Position numbers and translations under genes: made by a program | From: Asanoa ishikariensis | GTDB taxonomy: Bacteria > Actinomycetota > Actinomycetes > Mycobacteriales > Micromonosporaceae | Assembly (NCBI RefSeq): GCF_900107455.1 | Contig: NZ_FNQB01000001.1 | Span: 2,542,001 to 2,606,000, forward strand | DNA length: 64,000 nt | Reading direction: 5' to 3' | Notes under the pieces: generated by a model | The model's input: only the letters and a program-made list of their open reading frames with translations | Databases searched by the model: none | Told to the model about the DNA's origin: nothing | Part shown: positions 3,729 through 23,468 of the stretch, in pieces | How positions within the stretch are numbered: the first letter of the stretch is position 1 | Layout: each line of letters opens with the position of its first letter

Positions 3729-5125
3729 TGGATCCTCTGCACGACGACGGTACGGACGCCGCACTGCACGCGGTGTTCTCGGCGGCCGGGCCCTATCTGT
3801 CCTCGTTGGCGGATCGGCCCGTCTACGCGGGTTCCGAGCGGGTCAAGGAGCTCGGCGGCTCGCTGCCCGCCGACGGCGCGGGGGCGGCCTTGGTCGCCTC
3901 GCAACTGCTGTCCGTGGGCATGGAGTCGGCGACCCATTCGGCCGGGCCCAGGTTCTTCCACTTCGTCACCGGCGGCGTGACGCCCGCCGCGCTGGCCGCC
4001 GACTGGACCGTGTCGCTGCTCGACCAGAACGCCTTCTCGCGGGCCGCGTCGGAGTTCGCGACGTCGGTGGAGACCACCGCGCTGGACTGGTTGCGGTCGC
4101 TGTTCGGGCTGCCGCCGTCGTTCGGCGGTGCGCTCGTGGCCAGCGCGACGTTCGCGAACTTCACGGCCCTGGGCGCGGCGACGCACTGGTGGGCCTCCCG
4201 GCACGGCGTGGACGTGGCCGCGGCCGGCCTGCACGGGCTGCCCAGGATGCCGGTGTTCTCCGGCGGCTACGTGCACGCCAGCGCGCGCAAGGCGCTCCAG
4301 ATGCTCGGCCACGGGCGGGAGTCGGTGTCGGTGCACGGCGCGGGGCGGATCGATCTGTCCTCGTTGGACCGGGCGCTGGCGTCGTCCGGCCCGGCGGTGG
4401 TGATCGCCAACGCGGGTGAGGTCAACGCGGGCGACTTCGACCCGCTGGCCGAGCTGGCCTCGGTGGTGGCGCGCCATGACGCGTGGCTGCACGTCGACGG
4501 GGCGTTCGGGCTGTTCGCCGCGCTGTCGCCGCGGACGGCGCACCTGGTCGAGGGGCTCTCTCAGGTCGACTCGATCGCCTGCGACGGGCACAAGTGGCTC
4601 AACGTGCCGTACGAGAGCGGGTTCGCCTTCCTGCGCGAGCCGGTCCGGCTCGGTGCGGCGTTCGGGATGCCGGGCGCCCCGTACCTGCCGGGCGCGGACT
4701 CGCCGCGTGGCGGCTACGGCCTGCTCGGGCCGGAGTCGTCGCGGCGGGCGCGGTCGGTGCCGATCTGGGCGACGCTCGCGGCGTACGGGCGGTCCGGCTA
4801 CCGGGCGATGGTGGAGCGGCACCTGGACCTGGCGCAGGAGCTGGCCGGGCTGGTCGACGCGGCACCGGACCTGGAGCGCTTGGCCGATGTGCCGCTGTGC
4901 ATCGTCTGCTTCCGGGTGCGTCCGCCCGGGGTGCCGGAGTCGGCGCTCGACGACCTCAACCGGCGGGTGGGCGAGGCGCTGCTGGACGACGGGCGGGTGT
5001 TCGCGGGCACGACGGTGTACGAGGGCAAGGTGGCCCTCCGACCGGCGATCGTCAACTGGCGCACGACGTCGCGCGACATCGAGCTGTTCGTGTCGGTGGT
5101 CCGGGAGCTGGCGGCTACGGTGTGA
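3728..5125 (+). CDS. Pyridoxal-phosphate-dependent decarboxylase family protein
   Basis: The 465-residue fold-type I PLP enzyme belongs to the aromatic-L-amino-acid/glutamate decarboxylase group. The Schiff-base lysine is K289 in CDGHKWLNVPYESG, and the cofactor aspartate lies in HVDGAFGLFA upstream. The longer open frame to the left is not coding: the ATG at 3728 overlaps the glnE stop and gives the family's normal N-terminus. The substrate cannot be assigned; close family members act on aromatic amino acids or diaminobutyrate. It is the third gene of the amidotransferase-glnE operon. It ends 11 bases inside the convergent lipoprotein gene. Confidence 0.88.
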   Translation: MDPLHDDGTDAALHAVFSAAGPYLSSLADRPVYAGSERVKELGGSLPADGAGAALVASQLLSVGMESATHSAGPRFFHFVTGGVTPAALAADWTVSLLDQNAFSRAASEFATSVETTALDWLRSLFGLPPSFGGALVASATFANFTALGAATHWWASRHGVDVAAAGLHGLPRMPVFSGGYVHASARKALQMLGHGRESVSVHGAGRIDLSSLDRALASSGPAVVIANAGEVNAGDFDPLAELASVVARHDAWLHVDGAFGLFAALSPRTAHLVEGLSQVDSIACDGHKWLNVPYESGFAFLREPVRLGAAFGMPGAPYLPGADSPRGGYGLLGPESSRRARSVPIWATLAAYGRSGYRAMVERHLDLAQELAGLVDAAPDLERLADVPLCIVCFRVRPPGVPESALDDLNRRVGEALLDDGRVFAGTTVYEGKVALRPAIVNWRTTSRDIELFVSVVRELAATV

Positions 5126-5639
5126 GGTCCGCGGCGGTGACGGTGAGGGTGTTGTCGCCGAGGGGTTTGTAGCCCCCGGCCGGGTCGACCTCGTACTGAG
5201 CCTGGTCGGGGTTCAGCAGCGACGCCGCCGCGTCCGGATAGGTCTCCAGGAACAGCAGATATGGGGTGCCGTCCCGGAACGGCACCTGCTCCGGTTGCTC
5301 GTAGACCACGCCGTCGATCTCGCCGCCCATCTGCTTCACCTGGACCACCTGGCCGACACGCGCCGATCCCTTGTGGACCTTCGTCACGGTGGCGTCGTAG
5401 ACGGTGATGACGACGGCCGTCTCCTCCGTCTTCTCGCCGTCGGTGGGATAGAGCTTGTCGAACCTCGGGTTGGCCGTGGTCGCCTCGACGACGAGGGTGG
5501 CCCTCTCCAGGAGCTCGGCGACGCTCTGGTAGCGGGGATAGTCGCCCTGGTAGACGACCCGCCCGCCGAGGGCCTTCCCGCACCCGCCGGCGGCGAGCAG
5601 CGCGACGACGGCGACAGCGACGATTCTGCGCAAGGCCAT
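5115..5639 (-). CDS. Small secreted lipoprotein, function unknown
   Basis: The 174-residue protein starts MALRRIVAVAV, a classic signal peptide, and runs into a weak lipobox ending AAGGC at about residue 20, so it is probably lipidated and extracellular. The mature part is hydrophilic beta-rich sequence with no motif I recognise. An upstream in-frame extension exists, but it runs through an intergenic hairpin repeat and would bury the signal peptide, so the ATG at 5639 is preferred. Its 3' end overlaps the decarboxylase gene by 11 bp in a tail-to-tail arrangement. Confidence 0.72.
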   Translation of the reverse strand: MALRRIVAVAVVALLAAGGCGKALGGRVVYQGDYPRYQSVAELLERATLVVEATTANPRFDKLYPTDGEKTEETAVVITVYDATVTKVHKGSARVGQVVQVKQMGGEIDGVVYEQPEQVPFRDGTPYLLFLETYPDAAASLLNPDQAQYEVDPAGGYKPLGDNTLTVTAADLTP

Positions 5640-5687
5640 GACAAGTAGACGCGGTGGCGCGTGATGTCGTTCCGTCCGTGGTTTGTC

Positions 5688-5772
5688 CGGCGACCCGCCG
5701 CGGACCTGCCAGCGCAGCGCAGCGGAGCGGTCCCCGGCGGGAGCGACGGTCGCGCCCCCGACGGACCCGGGA
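5688..5772 (-). repeat. 85-bp dispersed hairpin repeat, copy 1
   Basis: This element is about 90% identical to 17311-17395 and sits in the same orientation just downstream of a stop codon (the MFS gene). Its core is a long stem: CCCGCCG (5694-5700) with CGGCGGG (5735-5741), and GGACC (5702-5706) with GGTCC (5729-5733), around a 22-base loop made of GCGCA-like steps. The other copy has the same stem with a compensating base-pair change. It may be a terminator or a REP-type mobile palindrome. Confidence 0.75.
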
Positions 5773-5784
5773 CCGCTCGGCTCT

Positions 5785-7035
5785 TCACGCTCTTGCCGTT
5801 GCGACATCGGCGGTCGCCTTGCTATCCCTGAGGTTGCGGATGGCGGGAAGCGTCAGCAACGCGAGCCCGGAGAGCACCTGCCACATGACGCCTGTCGCGA
5901 GGACGGCGGGGATGCTGGTGGCGGTGGCGACGGGACCGGCCAGGGCCAGGCCGATCGGGCCGACGGAGAACGAGCCGAAGACCACATAGGAGTTGACCCG
6001 GGACATCGCCTCTTCGGGTACGCGCTGGTGGATCGCGGTCATCCAGAGGGCGCCGAAGATGGCGCTGACGATGCCGGCCAGCAGTGCGCCGCCGCAGACC
6101 ACCAGGAGCGGGGCGCGGGCGGCCAGGGCCGCGGACGGTGCCGCCCAGAGGATGGTGGCGGCCGTGGCGACCAGCAGTGGGCGGGTGGGTTTCCAGCCGA
6201 GCACGACGAAGCCACCGAGGATCGCGCCCGCGCCGTACGTCGCGGTGATCGCACCCCAGGCGCCGGCGCCGCCGTACCAGCGGTCCGCGGAGACCGGGCC
6301 GAGCACCAGGTACGGCGCCCAGAGCAGCAGGTTGAACAGGGTGAACTGGAGGGTGATCGTCCACAGCCACGGCAGGGACGCGAACAGCCGCCAGCCCGTG
6401 CGCAGGTCCCGCAGCATCGACGGGCGGTCGACCCGGTCCGGGTCCGGAACTTTCAGCACGAGCAGGGCCAGGATGCTGGGTACGTAGGTGATCGCGTCGA
6501 CCAGCAGCACCGTCGCGGGTGAGGTGACGACGACCAGTGCCGCGGCGACGGCGGGGCCGGCGACGTTGGCGGTCGACTGGACCAGGCCGATGAACGTGTT
6601 GGCCTCGTGGCGGCGGTCGGCGGGCACGAGTTGCGGCACCAGGCCGTCGAAGGACGGGCGGAAGACCGCCTCGCCGAGACCGCCGAGCGCGGCGAGGATA
6701 AGGAGCAGGCTGAGGTCCGGGATGCCGGCGAAGAACAGCACCGCGATCGCGGCCTGGGAGACGGCGCGCAGGATGTCGGCCCAGAGCATCACCAGGCGGC
6801 GCGGGAAGCGGTCGCCGAGGACGCCGGCGAACGGCAGGATGGCGACCATCGGGACGATCCTGGCGGCGAGTACGTAGCTGAGGGTGGCGGGGGAGCCGCC
6901 GCTGTGGAGGACGGCGAACGCGAGGGCCACGCTCGCCATCTGCGTGCCGATCATCGACGTGACGTAACCGCCGACGAAGATGCGGAAGTCGCGCAGTCGC
7001 AGCACCGCGAAGCGCGCGCCGAGAGTCGGTCGCAC
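5785..7035 (-). CDS. MFS transporter
   Basis: The 416-residue, roughly 12-helix major facilitator protein begins with the RLRDFRIFVGGYVTSMIGTQ type N-terminus of the drug-export/enterobactin-exporter-like (MFS_3) group. The loop 2-3 motif GVLGDRFPRR is present. It is likely a proton-coupled efflux pump of unknown substrate. The GTG start has a strong ribosome binding site (GGGGAGGACAC just upstream). A promoter-like TTGACA-N18-CAGGAT precedes it, with a TCAAC-N5-GTTGA dyad over the -35. The HSP18-type regulator gene lies directly upstream on the same strand and carries the same dyad, so regulation by that protein is a reasonable inference. Confidence 0.9.
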   Translation of the reverse strand: MRPTLGARFAVLRLRDFRIFVGGYVTSMIGTQMASVALAFAVLHSGGSPATLSYVLAARIVPMVAILPFAGVLGDRFPRRLVMLWADILRAVSQAAIAVLFFAGIPDLSLLLILAALGGLGEAVFRPSFDGLVPQLVPADRRHEANTFIGLVQSTANVAGPAVAAALVVVTSPATVLLVDAITYVPSILALLVLKVPDPDRVDRPSMLRDLRTGWRLFASLPWLWTITLQFTLFNLLLWAPYLVLGPVSADRWYGGAGAWGAITATYGAGAILGGFVVLGWKPTRPLLVATAATILWAAPSAALAARAPLLVVCGGALLAGIVSAIFGALWMTAIHQRVPEEAMSRVNSYVVFGSFSVGPIGLALAGPVATATSIPAVLATGVMWQVLSGLALLTLPAIRNLRDSKATADVATARA

Positions 7036-16408: not shown

Positions 16409-16423
16409 GCGAGGATGGGGACC

Positions 16424-17014
16424 ATGGCGGGTGCGGAGCGGTGGCTGCGACGGGCCGCCGAGGGCGGCGACACTGACGCGATGGCCGCCGTCGGGCAGAT
16501 CCTGCAGGACCGGTGGGACCTGGCGGAGGCCGAGGAGTGGTACCAGCGTGCCGCCGACGCCGGGCATTCCGGCGCGATGGTCAACCTCGGTGTCCTGCTG
16601 ACGATGCGCGGCGAGCTGGCCGAGGCGGAGCGCTGGTACCGGCGGTCGGCCGAGACGGCGGACACCGACGCGATGATCAATCTGGCCGGGCTGCTGGCGG
16701 ACCGTGACGACCGGGCCGGCGCCGAGCAGTGGTTGCACCGCGCCGCCGACGCCGGTGAGACCGACGCGTTGGTCAACCTGGGCATCCTGGCCGGGACCGG
16801 CGGCGACGCGGACGAGGCCCGGCGGTGGTTCGGCCTCGCCGCCGACGCCGGCAACGCCGCCGGCATGTTCAACCTCGGTGTCCTGGCCGAGGAACGCCGC
16901 GACCTGACCGCGGCGGAGGAGTGGTACCAGCGCGCCGCCGCCGCCGGGAACCACCACGCTCAGGTCAACCTCGGCAGCCTCCGCGCCTCCCGGGGTGACT
17001 CCGGCGGATTCTGA
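16424..17014 (+). CDS. Sel1-like repeat protein (short)
   Basis: The 196-residue protein is built almost entirely of about five Sel1-type TPR units of 36 residues with the signature [24 protein letters not shown]. Sel1 repeats form right-handed superhelices for protein-protein contacts. It has no catalytic domain, signal peptide or membrane anchor. The ATG at 16424 is favoured because GAGGAT lies 7 bases before it; an ATG three codons earlier is possible. It is a smaller relative of the 770-residue protein 440 bp downstream, from which it may be a duplication fragment. Confidence 0.8.
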   Translation: MAGAERWLRRAAEGGDTDAMAAVGQILQDRWDLAEAEEWYQRAADAGHSGAMVNLGVLLTMRGELAEAERWYRRSAETADTDAMINLAGLLADRDDRAGAEQWLHRAADAGETDALVNLGILAGTGGDADEARRWFGLAADAGNAAGMFNLGVLAEERRDLTAAEEWYQRAAAAGNHHAQVNLGSLRASRGDSGGF

Positions 17015-17454: not shown

Positions 17455-19767
17455 ATGAATGACCATATGGCCATGCGTCCACGAAGGCTGATGTGGTGGG
17501 TGGCCGCCATCGGCCTCGCTGTCGTGGTCTTCTACGTCTTCCGTGACCTGCGTGATCTGGGCCCGGACTGGCTCGGCGCGCTCGGTGGGCTGCTCGTCCT
17601 CGGCGGGTTCGTCGGCGCGCTGGCCTGGCCGGGCGACCGCCGCGCCGGCACGGCGTCCACTGCGGACAGTCAACTGCCGGCGCGGGCCGAGGCCGGTGAC
17701 GTCGAGGCCATGGTCGCCCTCGGGCGCGAAGCGGCGCGCGAGGACCCAGCGGCGGCCACACGCTGGCTGGAACGGGCCGCGGAGGCGGGCGACACCAGCG
17801 CGATGGCCGAGCTCGGCATGCTGCTCGAACGGCGGGGTGACCGGGCCGGCGCGCTGCGCTGGAGCCGCCAGGGCGCCGACGCCGGCGACACCGACGTGAT
17901 GGTGGTGCTGGGCCGCCTCCTGCGAGCGTCCGGCGAGGTCGGCAAGGCGAGGAGGTGGCTCCGGCGGGCGGCGGACGCCGGAGACAGCGTCGCCATGTAC
18001 CACCTCGGCGAGCTGCACGAGGAGCACGGCGACCTGGCCGAGGCCGAGCGGTGGCATCGGCTCGCCGCGGAGGCCGGCGACGAGGACTCGATCGTCTGGC
18101 TGGGAGGTGCGCTGGAGCAGCGGGGCGAGCCGGCCGAGGCCGAACGGTGGTACCGCCGCGGCGCGCTGGAGGGCCAGGCCGAATCCATGAAGCGTCTCGG
18201 CCGCGCACTGCTGGACCGGGGCCAACCGGACGAGGCCATGCGGTGGTTCCGGCGCAGTGCCGAGGCCGGCGACGGCGAGGCCATGGTCCGCCTGGGGAAC
18301 CTGCTCGACGACCGCGGCGACGCGGTCGGTGCCGAGCGCTGGTTCAGGGCCGGGGCCGAGGCCGGCGACGTGATCGGAATGGTCAACCTCGGCCTGGCCC
18401 TCGATCGGCGCGGCGACCTCGCCGAGGCCGCGCGATGGTACCGAAGAGCGGCCGACGAGGGCGACCCCGACGCGATGGTCAACCTGGGCGCGCTGATCGG
18501 CCGGGACGACCCCACGAGCGCCGAGGCCGAGCAGTGGTTCCGCCGGGCCGCCCGCAGCGGCAACGCCGCCGCCATGGTCAACATCGGTACCGCCATGGCC
18601 CGGCGGGACAACCCGGCCGCGGCCGAGGTCTGGTACCGGCGGGCGGCCCGGGCGGGCGACGCCGGCGCCATGCTCCAGGTCGGCTACCTCGTGCACGGTC
18701 GCGGGGAGCCGGCCGAGCCGTGGTTCCAGCGGGCCGCGGACGGCGGCGACATCTGGGGGATGTGCGAGCTCGGCAACCTGCTCCAGGAGCGCGGCGAACG
18801 CGACGAGGCCGAGCGGCTGTTCCGGCGTGCGGCCGAGTCGGCGGACCCGACCGCGTTGTTCAACCTCGCCGCCTTCTACGACCGCCAGGGTGAGCGGCCG
18901 GATGCCGAGCGCTGGTTTCAGAAGGCGGCCGAGGCCGGCGACACCGACGCGATGAGCCGGTTGGGCGACTACTGCCACGAGCGCGGCGAGACGAAGACGG
19001 CCGAGCGCTGGTACCGGCAGGGCGCCGAGGCCGGGAACGCCGCCGCGATGGGCGGCCTGGGCGCCGTCCGCTGGGAGCGCGGCGACCGGGCGGAGGCCGA
19101 ACGGTGGTGGCTGCGGGGCATCGAGGCCGGCGACCCGGCGTCGTTCTACTACCTCGCCGACCTGACCCAGCACCGCGTCGACGAGGAATCGGCCGAGCGC
19201 TGGTGCCGCCCGGCCGCCGAAGCCGGCCACCCGGACGCGATGCACGTCGTGGGCTGGTCGCTGCGCGAGCGGGAGCCGGTGGAAGCCGAGCGGTGGTACC
19301 GGCGCTCAGCCGAGGCCGGTGGCGCCGGGGGGATGAACAGCCTGGCCATCCTGCTCAGGAGCCGAGGGGAACGCGTGGAAGCCCGGCGCTGGCTGCACAC
19401 CGCCGCGGAGGCCGGTCATCCCAACGCGATGTTCAACCTCGGGCTGCACGACCAGGAGGACGGCGACCTGGCCAGCGCCCGGCTCTGGTACGAACGTTCC
19501 GCCGACGCCGGCAACCCCTTCGCCGGCTACAACCTGGGCCGGTTGCACGAGAAGGCCGACGAGTTCACCGAGGCCGAACGCTGGTACCGGCAGGGCGCCG
19601 ACGCCGGTGACCCGCTCGCGATGAACGGCCTCGGCATCCTGGCGGAGCGGCGCGGCGACCAGCGCCGGGCGAACCGGTGGTACCGGCGCGCGACGCGGGC
19701 CGCCACCCCCGACCAGTTGGTCGAGCTGCGTACGGACGCCGAGGAGCGGGCGAAGCTGAGCGGTTAG
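17455..19767 (+). CDS. Membrane-anchored Sel1-repeat protein (770 aa)
   Basis: The N-terminus has two hydrophobic segments ([16 protein letters not shown] and [19 protein letters not shown], residues about 14-60). About 700 residues follow, of roughly 19 consecutive 36-residue Sel1/TPR units ([21 protein letters not shown]). The repeats form a long cytoplasmic superhelical scaffold. Sel1 proteins in bacteria mediate signalling or complex assembly, but no partner is suggested here. The ATG at 17455 is preferred over internal ATGs at codons 5 and 7. The stop overlaps the convergent lipA stop by 3 bp. Confidence 0.85.
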
Positions 19768-20696
19768 ACGGCCGGCGTACGCGCGGCGAGAGCCTGCTTG
19801 TAGAGCCGACCCGCGCGGTAGCTGGACCGCACCAGCGGGCCGCTCATCACGCCGGCGAAGCCGATCTGCTCGGCCTCCTGCGCCAGCTCGACGAACTCCT
19901 CCGGCTTGACCCAGCGCTCGACCGGGTGGTGCCGCGGCGACGGGCGCAGGTACTGCGTGATCGTCACCAGCTCGGTCCCGGCCTCGTGCAGGTCGCGCAG
20001 CGCCTGGGAGACCTCGGAGCGCTCCTCGCCCATGCCCAGGATCAGGTTGGACTTGGTCACGAGCCCGAACTCACGCGCCTGGGTGATGACGTCCAGCGAC
20101 CGCTCGTAGCGGAAGCCCGGCCGGATCCGCTTGAAGATCCGCGGCACGGTCTCGACGTTGTGGGCCAGCACTTCCGGGCGCGACTCGAAGACCTGAGTCA
20201 GCAGCGACGGCGTGCCGTTGAAGTCCGGGATGAGCAGTTCGACGCCGCAGCCCTCCTGGAGGGCGTGGATCTGGCGGACCGTCTCCGCGTAGAGCCAGGC
20301 GCCGCCGTCGGGCAGGTCGTCGCGGGCCACGCCGGTGACCGTCGCGTAGCGCAGGCCCATCGTGGCGACCGACTCGGCGACCCGGCGGGGCTCGTCGGCG
20401 TCGAACTCGGCCGGCTTGCCCGTGTCGATCTGGCAGAAGTCGCAGCGCCGGGTGCACTGGTCGCCACCGATCAGGAAGGTGGCCTCGCGGTCTTCCCAAC
20501 ACTCGTAGATGTTGGGACAGCCAGCCTCCTGGCACACGGTGTGCAAGCCTTCGCGCTGAACCAGACCGTGGAGCGAGGTGAACTCGGGGCCCATCTTGGC
20601 CTTGACCTTGATCCACGGTGGCTTGCGCTCAATAGGCGTCTCGGCGTTCCGCGCCTCGATGCGCAGGAGCCGGCGGCCTTCTGGAGCGATCGTCAC
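19764..20696 (-). CDS. lipA: Lipoyl synthase
   Basis: This radical-SAM enzyme inserts two sulfurs into protein-bound octanoyl groups to make lipoyl cofactor. All cluster ligands are present: the auxiliary [12 protein letters not shown] (Cx4Cx5C), the radical-SAM CTRRCDFC (Cx3Cx2C), and the C-terminal RSSY motif. The 310-residue length is normal. The GTG start is 7 bases after TACGCT (minus strand), so the mRNA is probably leaderless. It works with LipB (3 kb away), and its products include the SucB lipoyl domains encoded in this window. Confidence 0.97.
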
Positions 20697-20813: not shown

Positions 20814-20819
20814 CGGCCG

Positions 20820-21038
20820 CAACGGCGCAGACGGAACCAAGTAGCGATCGACCACGCCGGCAGAGAGAGCCACCAGCAGCTGTGACGGTGGCCCGGCGCC
20901 CGGTCGCGAAGACACTCCCGAGCCGAGCACGACAAATGAGGCCCCAGCGCCGAAACGCGGGGGCGAAGGTGTGGTGGCACCGCGAGGAACCCGCTCGCCC
21001 ACACCTCCCGGGGATCGCGTTGCGATTGACGAGGAGGT
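20820..21038 (+). ncRNA. T-box riboswitch, Asp (GAC) specific, translational type
   Basis: The leader before aspS has the T-box landmarks in order. AGTA (20840-20843) and the AGAGAG bulge motif (20862-20867) lie in Stem I. GAA-GAC-A (specifier 20911-20913) is followed by a CTCCCGAG-type stem. The T-box GAAGGTGTGGTGGCACCGCG (20965-20984) has the tRNA-pairing bulge TGGC. GAC is an Asp codon, and TGGC fits a G discriminator base, as in tRNA-Asp. GGTGTGG (20968-20974) can pair with CCACACC (20999-21005). Alternatively ACCTCC (21003-21008) can pair with the ribosome binding site GGAGGT (21033-21038). The shared bases make these exclusive, so uncharged tRNA should expose the ribosome binding site. 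Confidence 0.85.
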
Positions 21039-21043
21039 CCACC

Positions 21044-22303
21044 ATGCAACGCATCCTGTCCAGCCAGCTACCCGCCTACGCGGGCCGCACCGTCACCGTC
21101 GCCGGCTGGGTCCATCGCCGCCGCGTGCTGAAGGCGGTCGCCTTCCTGATCATGCGCGACCGGGCCGGCCTGGTCCAGATCGTCATAACTGACCCCAAGG
21201 TGCGCGAACAGCTCGAGCGGCTGACCGAGGAGACGGTCGTCGAGGTCACCGGCCTCGTGACCATCAACAGCGCCGCCCCTCTGGGCGTGGAGCTCACCCA
21301 GCCGGTGGTACGCGCGTTGAGCGCCGCCGCCGCACCGCCCCCGTTCGACCTCTACCGGCCGCTGCTCACGGCGAACCTGCCCACGCAGCTCGACCACGCG
21401 TCGGTGGCCCTGCGGCACGCGACCCGCCGCCGCGCGGTCACGGCCGCCGCGGCCGCCGCCGAGGGGTTCCGCGCGACCCTGGACGAACGCGGCTTCACCG
21501 AGATCTTCACGCCGAAGATCGTCGCCTCGGCCACCGAGAGCGGCGCCAACGTCTTCGGCATCGACTATTTCGGCAGCCAGGCCTTCCTCGCCCAGAGCCC
21601 GCAGTTCTACAAGCAGCTCATGGTCGGGGTCTTCGAGCAGGTCTACGAGGTCGGCCCGGTGTTCCGCGCCGAGCCGCACGACACCGCCCGGCACCTGGCC
21701 CAGTACACGTCGCTGGACGTCGAGCTGGGCTTCATCGACGACCACCGCGACGTGATGGCGGTGCTGCGCGACGTCGTGGCCGGCATGACCGACGCGGTCT
21801 CCAACCGGCTGCCGGGCGTCAAGATGCCGGTCGTGCCCGCCGAGATCCCGGTCGTCCACTTCACGACCGCGCTGGAGATCGCCGGGGCGCCGGACGACGA
21901 GCCCGACCTGGCCCCCGCGCACGAGCGGGCGTTGGGTGAGTGGGCGCTCCGCGAGCACGGCTCGGACTTCCTCTACGTGACCGGCTACCCGATGCGCAAG
22001 AGGCCGTTCTACACGCATCCCGAGCCGGGCCGCCCGACCCACTCGAACTCGTTCGACCTGCTGTTCCGGGGCCTGGAGATGGTCACCGGCGGGCAGCGGC
22101 TGCACGAGCACGCCGACTACGTCGCCGCGTTGAAGGGCGACCTGACCGGCGTCGAGACCTACGTCGAGGCGTTCCGGCACGGCATGCCGCCGCACGGCGG
22201 TTTCGCCATCGGCCTGGAGCGCTTCGTGGCCCGCCTACTCGGCGCGACCAACGTGCGCGAGGTCGCCGTGTTCCCGCGCGACCTGCACCGCCTCACGCCG
22301 TAA
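21044..22303 (+). CDS. aspS: Archaeal-type aspartate--tRNA(Asp/Asn) ligase
   Basis: The 419-residue class II synthetase is shorter than the roughly 590-residue bacterial AspRS and lacks the GAD insertion; it matches the archaeal/eukaryal type. It has an N-terminal OB fold (VAGWVHRRRVLKAVAFLIMR), motif 2 FRAEPHDTARHLAQYTSLD and motif 3 GGFAIGLERFVARLLG, plus the aspartate-binding AQSPQFYKQ and VTGYPMRKRPFY segments. H24 and P79 fill the two OB-fold positions that are Trp and Lys in tRNA-Asp-only enzymes and His and Pro in non-discriminating ones. It may therefore also charge tRNA-Asn for GatCAB. The ATG follows GGAGGT, which the T-box can sequester. Confidence 0.9.
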   Translation: MQRILSSQLPAYAGRTVTVAGWVHRRRVLKAVAFLIMRDRAGLVQIVITDPKVREQLERLTEETVVEVTGLVTINSAAPLGVELTQPVVRALSAAAAPPPFDLYRPLLTANLPTQLDHASVALRHATRRRAVTAAAAAAEGFRATLDERGFTEIFTPKIVASATESGANVFGIDYFGSQAFLAQSPQFYKQLMVGVFEQVYEVGPVFRAEPHDTARHLAQYTSLDVELGFIDDHRDVMAVLRDVVAGMTDAVSNRLPGVKMPVVPAEIPVVHFTTALEIAGAPDDEPDLAPAHERALGEWALREHGSDFLYVTGYPMRKRPFYTHPEPGRPTHSNSFDLLFRGLEMVTGGQRLHEHADYVAALKGDLTGVETYVEAFRHGMPPHGGFAIGLERFVARLLGATNVREVAVFPRDLHRLTP

Positions 22304-22345: not shown

Positions 22346-22386
22346 CAGGCGCCGCGCCTTAGCCCAGGAGCGTCGGCAGGCGCCGC
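22328..22386 (-). repeat. Tandem duplication of the lipB 3' end
   Basis: Positions 22328-22355 repeat 22359-22386 with 26 of 28 bases identical (period 31). The distal copy still reads R-R-L-P-T-L-L-G-stop. It forms part of the terminator. Confidence 0.8.
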
Positions 22387-22997
22387 TCGACGATCGGCAG
22401 CACGTCGTCGACCGTCACCTGTCGGCCGAGCTCGGCGGTCAGGGACGTCGTCGTGGCGTCGCGGATGCCACAGGCCACGATGTGGTCGTACGCCGCGAGG
22501 TCGCAGTCGGCGTTGATGGAGAACCCGTGCTGGGTGACGCCCCGGGAGACCCGGATGCCGATGGCGGCGACCTTGCGGGCCGGCCCTCGGTCGTCCTCGG
22601 CCACCCAGACGCCGCTGCGGCCCTCGATGCGGGTGGTGGTCAGGCCCAGCTCGGCGCAGGTGTCGATGAGCAACTGCTCGGTGCGCCGGACGTAGGCGAC
22701 CACGTCGATCGGGGCGGGCAGGCGCAGGATCGGGTAGCCGACCAACTGACCCGGCCCGTGCCAGGTGATCTTGCCGCCGCGGTCGACGTCGATCACCGGG
22801 CTGCCGTCGGTCGGCCGGTCCCAGGGCTCGGTGCGCTTGCCGGCGGTGTACACGAACGGGTGGTCCAGGAGCAGCACGGTGTCGGGAGTGACACCGTCGG
22901 CCACCTCGTCGTGGAGGCGGCGCTGTTCGTCCCAGGCGACCTGGTAGTCGATCGTGCCGAGACGGCGGGCCTGAAGCTTGGGAAGCACGCTGGTCAC
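22359..22997 (-). CDS. lipB: Lipoyl(octanoyl) transferase
   Basis: It moves octanoate from acyl-carrier protein to lipoyl-domain lysines, the step before LipA. The 212-residue protein has the LipB core [11 protein letters not shown], the catalytic Lys in [11 protein letters not shown], and the catalytic Cys in [17 protein letters not shown] at 22997 is chosen over the longer frame because TACGCT lies 7 bases upstream and the homologous N-terminus begins here. It is convergent with aspS; its last codons are tandemly duplicated downstream. lipA lies on the same strand, separated by the T-box/aspS unit. Confidence 0.95.
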
Positions 22998-23004
22998 GCC
23001 CCAA

Positions 23005-23010
23005 AGCGTA
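23005..23010 (-). promoter_or_regulatory. -10 element for leaderless lipB
   Basis: TACGCT on the minus strand ends 7 bases before the GTG at 22997. Confidence 0.5.
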
Positions 23011-23051
23011 GCCCTCGCCCGGCGGCGCGACCCCCTGACATGATTCGCGTC

Positions 23052-23468
23052 ATGGTGACCCGGGCGCTGGTGCTGATCCATGCGGGGGTCGCCGCGCTCT
23101 GGCTCGGCTCGATGGCCTACAGCCTGTTCGTGGTGCAGCCCAAGCTGCGCGCGATCGCGCAGGACCACGAGGACGCCCAACGCACCCTGGCCCACGGCAA
23201 CCGCCGCCCGGTGGTCGCCATGATCACTGTGCTCTGGGTCACGGGCATCGCGCTGACGGCGAGACAGCCCAGCGCCACGGCGGCCGCCAAGGCGGGATTG
23301 CTCGCCGCCGCCACCGCAGTGTTCTGGTGGGTCTCCTGGCGCGGCTGGCCGCGCCGGGTGTTCGCCCTGCCGGCCGAGCTACCGGCCCTCCAGCGCCGCT
23401 TCCGGGCCGCCGCATTGGCGATGTTCGCGCTGGTCGGCGCCGCTTTCGCGATCAGCTACCTCTGGTGA
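23052..23468 (+). CDS. Four-helix membrane protein, unknown function
   Basis: The 138-residue protein has four predicted transmembrane helices ([66 protein letters not shown]). The arrangement resembles CopD/DUF4149-like proteins, with a His in the first helix, but no family can be claimed. ATG 23052 is preferred, since CATGAT lies 7 bases upstream; an ATG 12 bases earlier is in frame. Its 3' end overlaps the convergent glycosyltransferase-like gene by 13 bp. Confidence 0.65.

Follow-up and report, generated by a model that had tools for sequence, protein, structure and literature searches.

A probable aspartate-specific translational T-box riboswitch upstream of an archaeal-type aspartyl-tRNA synthetase gene in Asanoa ishikariensis

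The leader at positions 20819-21043 of the window (the whole stretch of 64,000 nucleotides of A. ishikariensis DNA that was analysed) is, judged on its sequence, very probably an Asp-specific translational T-box riboswitch controlling aspS2, which encodes a second aspartyl-tRNA synthetase (AspRS2). Support from this analysis comes from the sequence, conservation of the fold, covariation, a specifier that follows the gene, and overlap with the Shine-Dalgarno (SD) sequence. An earlier note on this DNA had named Stem I motifs, a specifier, a T-box and switch bases, and all were re-read in place, base for base (Table 1); the names K-turn, AG bulge and elbow-binding distal loop are those we take to apply to the Stem I motifs. 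The leader has a codon-like specifier in the Stem I internal loop, a UGGN bulge whose N can pair with the discriminator base of its tRNA (TGGC, G73), Stem III with helices A1 and A2, and an anti-SD helix that cannot coexist with the antisequestrator, which would place it among translational (class II) T-boxes. Stem II with S-turn and IIA/B, an optional feature, is absent from the window.

Table 1. Features of the aspS2 leader and its neighbours in the window.
Feature	Position	Strand	Basis or detail
T-box aptamer and discriminator (full RF00230 match)	20819..21005	+	RF00230, 38.6 bits
Stem I, long form, K-turn at base	20824..20925	+	RF00230 consensus alignment, 31-sequence alignment
AGTA facing specifier in Stem I	20840-20843	+	
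AG bulge AGAGA in Stem I	20862-20866	+	
Stem I distal loop (elbow-binding motifs)	about 20875-20885	+	
GAA preceding specifier	20908-20910	+	
Specifier GAC (Asp)	20911..20913	+	followed by A at 20914
Stem III	20941..20964	+	20941-20945 paired with 20960-20964, purines either side
Antisequestrator, helices A1 and A2	20968..21005	+	covariation in both
Helix A1	20968-20974 with 20999-21005	+	GGTGTGG with CCACACC
T-box bulge TGGCACC	20975..20981	+	TGGC complementary to GCCA end of tRNA-Asp (G73)
Helix A2	20982-20986 with 20994-20998	+	GCGAG with CTCGC
Anti-Shine-Dalgarno ACCTCC	21003..21008	+	first three bases also within A1
Shine-Dalgarno GGAGGT	21033..21038	+	sequestered in predicted OFF fold
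aspS2 start ATG	21044-21046	+	
aspS2, archaeal-type aspartate--tRNA(Asp/Asn) ligase, 419 aa and stop	21044..22303	+	NF003483
lipA, upstream neighbour	19764..20696	-	context only
lipB, downstream neighbour	22359..23195	-	context only

The order lipA-aspS2-lipB was found in most of the micromonosporaceal loci examined. Elsewhere in the window, Sel1/TPR-repeat proteins are encoded at 17455-19767 (770 aa) and 16415-17014.

A search with the Rfam T-box model RF00230, the check proposed in the earlier note, matched 20819-21005 with 38.6 bits over 219 of 219 model positions (E = 3.1e-7 in 401 bases and 1.7e-6 in the 9.09 Mb genome). This score falls short of the Rfam gathering threshold of 93 bits, and no T-box in the window is listed at that curated cut-off; the genome's own ileS T-box (L001), with 54.6 bits, likewise stays under it. 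These two, the aspS2 leader and the one upstream of ileS, were the RF00230 matches in the whole genome. The folding energy of the whole leader compared with shuffled sequences gave no signal for or against (z = -0.83). We regard the T-box as real because it is conserved and covaries in relatives.

For conservation, 103 leaders were collected, 20 from relatives and 83 from further loci (78 of the 80 retained among the matches listed, and 5 plasmid records), after three rows lacking the leader or the start (L026, L093, L114) had been dropped. Among the matches listed, 88 of the 103 aspS2 leaders carried the core GGTGG[CT]AC[CA][GA][CG]G, with C as the fourth T-box base in 79 and T in 9; a variant core was recognised by eye in L100. 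By phylum, again among the matches listed, the core was present in 45 of 46 loci of Actinomycetota, 15 of 17 of Chloroflexota (L100 included) and 5 of 5 of Bacillota, and in none of 10 in the remaining groups. It also occurred in 4 of the 5 plasmid records and was not found in the one Thermus locus examined (L109). Five leaders (L063, L064, L066, L080, L120) had the bulge TGGCACA. Our model R1, whose training set took in 14 of the 20 leaders concerned and left 6 outside, matched directly upstream of aspS2 in 20 of 21 aspS2-bearing relatives, the remaining one being a truncated contig; in the 20 relatives lacking aspS2 it gave a single, weak match, at ileS. RF00230 itself detected 10 of 14 aspS2 loci tested, and the four missed (L014, L018, L020, L025) were read as having an ultrashort Stem I.

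Covariation was scored on structures that came from the same alignments or from one member and were thus somewhat favoured. In the discriminator (46 selected sequences), 91.5% of cells were paired and 14 of 18 pairs showed changes on both sides, with a score of 0.346 against 0.151 for shuffled alignments (0 of 500 shuffles as high) and at most 0.110 for slid ones. In the long Stem I (31 sequences), 93.6% were paired and two-sided change was seen in 19 of 22 pairs, with a score of 0.560 against 0.204 shuffled and at most 0.103 slid. On an AspRS2 tree built by a quick method from 83 rows among the matches listed, 69 of them with a T-box, the T-box label changed 8 times compared with 13.2 times when shuffled. 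Since long branches leave the deep order of this tree unsure, no transfer story was drawn. The gene itself is patchy, as only 5 genomes in an even sample of 296 from the phylum had an aspS2 match at E <= 1e-60.

Bases 21003-21005 are common to helix A1 and the anti-SD helix exactly as claimed earlier, and the proposed switch at the level of translation is borne out by conservation of an anti-SD that overlaps the antisequestrator among relatives. The sequestrator helix of the window (21003-21008 with 21033-21038) has 6 bp, a length that 2% of shuffles reach. Across relatives, 71 leaders among the matches listed, with a GCG or GGG core, were analysed; 15 lay outside by their core (14 with ACCACG, L081 included, and L113), and L036 and L038 were dropped as repeats of L007 and L014. 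In these 71, the longest Watson-Crick helix that the SD region can form with the end of A1 and its flanking bases averaged 5.34 bp against 3.16 bp shuffled, and was at least 5 bp in 45, at least 6 bp in 38 and under 5 bp in 26. Bases flanking the SD core vary together with their partners, for example CTGGAGG/CCTCCAG and CCAGGAGG/CCTCCTGG. When A1/A2 was forced, the modelled unpaired fraction of the SD in the window rose from 0.47 to 0.99. The thermodynamic model was weak across the family: in the same 71 leaders, mean SD exposure went from 0.28 to 0.43, and although 62 showed a rise, it exceeded 0.3 in only 11.

We infer tRNA binding, sensing of aminoacylation and the direction of the switch as follows, together with the stand-by role of AspRS2 taken up below. 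The long Stem I would pair GAC with the tRNA-Asp anticodon while its distal loop holds the tRNA elbow. With uncharged tRNA-Asp, the GCCA end would pair with UGGC and stabilise helices A1/A2 (20968-21005); once these have formed, 21003-21005 would be withheld from the anti-SD, the SD would be free and AspRS2 would be made. With charged tRNA-Asp, ACCUCC would pair with GGAGGU and translation would be blocked.

Asp specificity, claimed from the GAC triplet, held both in a specifier profile and in the way the triplet follows gene type. A Stem I profile trained with the specifier columns masked matched 60 leaders among the matches listed; of 58 that were readable, 56 had GAC, one GAT (also Asp) and one an insertion-shifted triplet (ATGACC), and two more were uncovered. 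The base 3' of the specifier is C rather than a purine in many relatives, which counts against the model. The C of TGGC had been taken to predict a G73 tRNA, as in tRNA-Asp. Among the 30 of 77 tRNA loci covered, both tRNA-Asp genes indeed had G73, but so did both tRNA-Asn genes, whereas the two tRNA-Ile genes had A73; UGGC alone therefore cannot separate Asp from Asn, and the specifier can. In ileS leaders, the specifier is ATC and the T-box UGGT. A dense tRNA array in the same genome (G000:C2:1892645-1896405; L129, L133, L143) holds second copies of many tRNAs, including those for Asp and Asn.

The triplet follows the gene in a wider search as well. R1 gave 23 matches in 22 of 296 genomes of the class: 17 lay at aspS2 of this kind, and the others at a distant AspRS (L179, 35% identity), a SerRS (L180), a bacterial AspRS (L184), ileS (L196) and two places without gene assignment (L194, L195). 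In the genus of L180, probably Streptomyces, 36 of 295 genomes had matches, 46 matches in all, of which 37 were read and 9 left out. Reading of 46 leaders, with one SerRS place and one AspRS place counted twice and L236-L238 outside the analysis, gave TCC before SerRS in 14 of 14 and GAC before AspRS in 29 of 30, the odd one (L189, GAAGACCC) being a misread by the regular expression; two GAC leaders had no assigned gene. The TCC leaders stand before a second SerRS (L231-L234, L203, L212, L218, L219, L225, L226, L228-L230, L235); in genome G533 the T-box SerRS is a second copy with 38% identity to its other SerRS. In L231-L234 the two kinds occur in tandem, TCC leader with SerRS and GAC leader with AspRS separated by about 3 kb; the Stem I sequences of both leaders of L232 are almost identical apart from the triplet. 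Between SerRS and AspRS, L232 also encodes a 343-aa protein (5056-6087, minus strand), present in L233 too, kinase-like by eye and without a Pfam match. At about 1290-1540 of L184 (minus strand of the locus; genome G437), an ultrashort Asp T-box with a GTGACG loop and UGGC precedes the bacterial-type AspRS.

Leaders of this family differ in stem layout. In the window, Stem III follows Stem I after a linker of 14 nt and there is no Stem II, which counts against the model; short linkers of this kind were shared by Asanoa, Phytohabitans and Kribbella leaders, and in Micromonospora leaders Stem II is retained and carries an AGTAGA motif. Similar palindromic, repeat-like inserts were seen in the aspS2 T-box leaders of Micromonospora L039, L048 (with Stem II) and L041, in the last of which Stem I is beyond recognition. 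At several loci, a short hairpin with TGAC in its loop stands where Stem I would be, and L063, L066, L080 and L070, upstream of aspS2, seem to have an ultrashort Stem I, also without Stem II. These four are predicted to function as minimal T-boxes; unconstrained folding of them did not find the ON fold. The ultrashort class was left uncounted, since its finder used a motif containing GAC and took wrong hairpins in several rows. In the accessible parts of a review, Stem II is described as optional in the T-box family and usual in translational T-boxes, and a short Stem I without Stem II as hardly binding tRNA. Leaders lacking both the elbow-binding motifs and Stem II would test that view.

The synthetase had been called a second type, and the genome indeed carries an archaeal-type AspRS beside a bacterial-type one, the latter matched as pieces at C4:1976624 and 1977986 with 36-38% identity. 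AspRS2 scored 506 bits with NF003483 (cut-off 353) and 347.6 bits with TIGR00458, just below its cut-off of 368.4; its Pfam domains are tRNA-synt_2 and tRNA_anti-codon only, with no GAD insertion domain. Its best solved relative is Thermus AspRS2 (1n9w, E = 2.2e-105). H24 and P79 align with W26 and Lys of the Asp-only archaeal enzyme 1b8a, a pattern that we take to be non-discriminating. GatB is present, and the genome search returned no AsnRS or other class IIb relative besides a LysX-like match.

These features of the enzyme bear on which tRNA is sensed. As an enzyme of this type serves asparagine formation with GatCAB, the leader might sense tRNA-Asn, a reading favoured by GatB and the absent AsnRS match, by G73 in both tRNA-Asn genes observed, and by H24 and P79 in place of W26 and Lys. 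We give it very little credence and rejected it on the specifier triplet, which is GAC or GAT, and never AAC, in 57 in-register leaders among the matches listed. That the element is a decayed T-box without function, which merely happens to survive close to aspS2, would agree with the loss of Stem II and the low RF00230 score; compensatory changes on both sides of the helices, the conserved anti-SD and the same leader in five other Asanoa genomes make this highly improbable. Control by transcription termination rather than by sequestration of the ribosome-binding site was considered in view of terminator-like hairpins with a T run seen by eye 3' of the T-box in several Chloroflexota and Bacillota (L088, L089, L111, L116). 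It is unlikely here, as the competing helix in the window is anti-SD:SD and no T run is seen on reading the sequence.

An Asp-specific translational switch would suit a stand-by synthetase turned on by uncharged tRNA-Asp, since a second enzyme lies under a sensor of uncharged tRNA-Asp while a full first enzyme is present. There is nonetheless an appreciable, if lesser, possibility that aspS2 supplies Asp-tRNA-Asn as a housekeeping function or serves under Asp starvation: Thermus and Deinococcus use a second AspRS in that way, as far as the consulted part of PMC4206432 goes, although 20 of 41 relatives have no aspS2 and manage with the bacterial AspRS alone (judged on AspRS, AsnRS aside). The stand-by role may extend to protection against synthetase inhibitors, by analogy with the synthetase paralogues reviewed in PMC9437257 (sections consulted). 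In a Macrococcus plasmid (L119, 2953-4236), aspS2 directly follows genes for an MFS transporter and an unassigned 455-aa protein, preceded by a methyltransferase, and has no T-box core; microcin-like self-immunity is a lead only for this locus.

Among known systems, the translational ileS T-box of Mycobacterium and Nocardia, one of which is in this genome, shares with the aspS2 leader the T-box bulge, Stem III and an antisequestrator opposed to an anti-SD. It differs in combining ATC with UGGU rather than GAC with UGGC and, in its form here, in having a short Stem I with Stem II where the aspS2 leader has a long Stem I without it. The glyQS T-box has a long Stem I and lacks Stem II, which is the reduced layout of the Asanoa leader, but it senses tRNA-Gly and acts on transcription. 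Firmicute aspS/asnS T-boxes also act transcriptionally, unlike the mode proposed for the aspS2 leader. Those of Clostridium acetobutylicum, linked to tRNA-dependent amidation, are likewise reported as Asp/Asn-related T-boxes on an extra AspRS, but they are not known to belong to a separate lipA-aspS2-lipB locus as in Asanoa. For Thermus thermophilus AspRS2 (1n9w), the closest solved enzyme, the likeness ends at the leader, since the single Thermus locus examined lacks the T-box core.

The earlier note had named ileS as the known actinobacterial translational T-box, in agreement with the parts available to us of the literature (PMC7583486, PMC1262725, PMC2494555, PMC7778990, PMC10651847, PMC4206432, PMC3766115, PMC9437257, PMC9413887). 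One of these, in its accessible part, records extra AspRSs in Actinomycetales without mention of a T-box (PMC4206432), and the TBDB description at hand states that a class II model was applied to Actinobacteria. Searches of the open-licence literature found no account of an Asp or Ser T-box from actinobacteria; TBDB may list such leaders. An Asp version is thus unusual, as had been said, relative to the ileS-centred literature in those parts, but it is common where aspS2 occurs (45 of 46 actinomycetotal loci among the matches listed).

Asp, and in relatives Ser, would thus be added to the actinobacterial translational T-boxes, described through ileS in the sources as available, and this known kind of switch would be broader in actinobacteria than the familiar isoleucine example. 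The tandem Ser and Asp pairs amount to a specifier swap experiment made by nature. As a tentative and rather doubtful generalisation, a T-box joined to a spare synthetase (AspRS2, SerRS2, sometimes adjacent) might form a codon-addressed inducible stand-by in actinobacteria: inhibition of the housekeeping enzyme would leave its tRNA uncharged, and a second enzyme, divergent or unrelated, would then be turned on, possibly as a defence against antibiotics that target synthetases. Copying of the RNA together with a three-base change might give rise to new specificities, and some members (Humibacillus, Terrabacter, Flexivirga) might function with an ultrashort Stem I and without Stem II. The tie to second synthetase copies makes the stand-by role directly testable.
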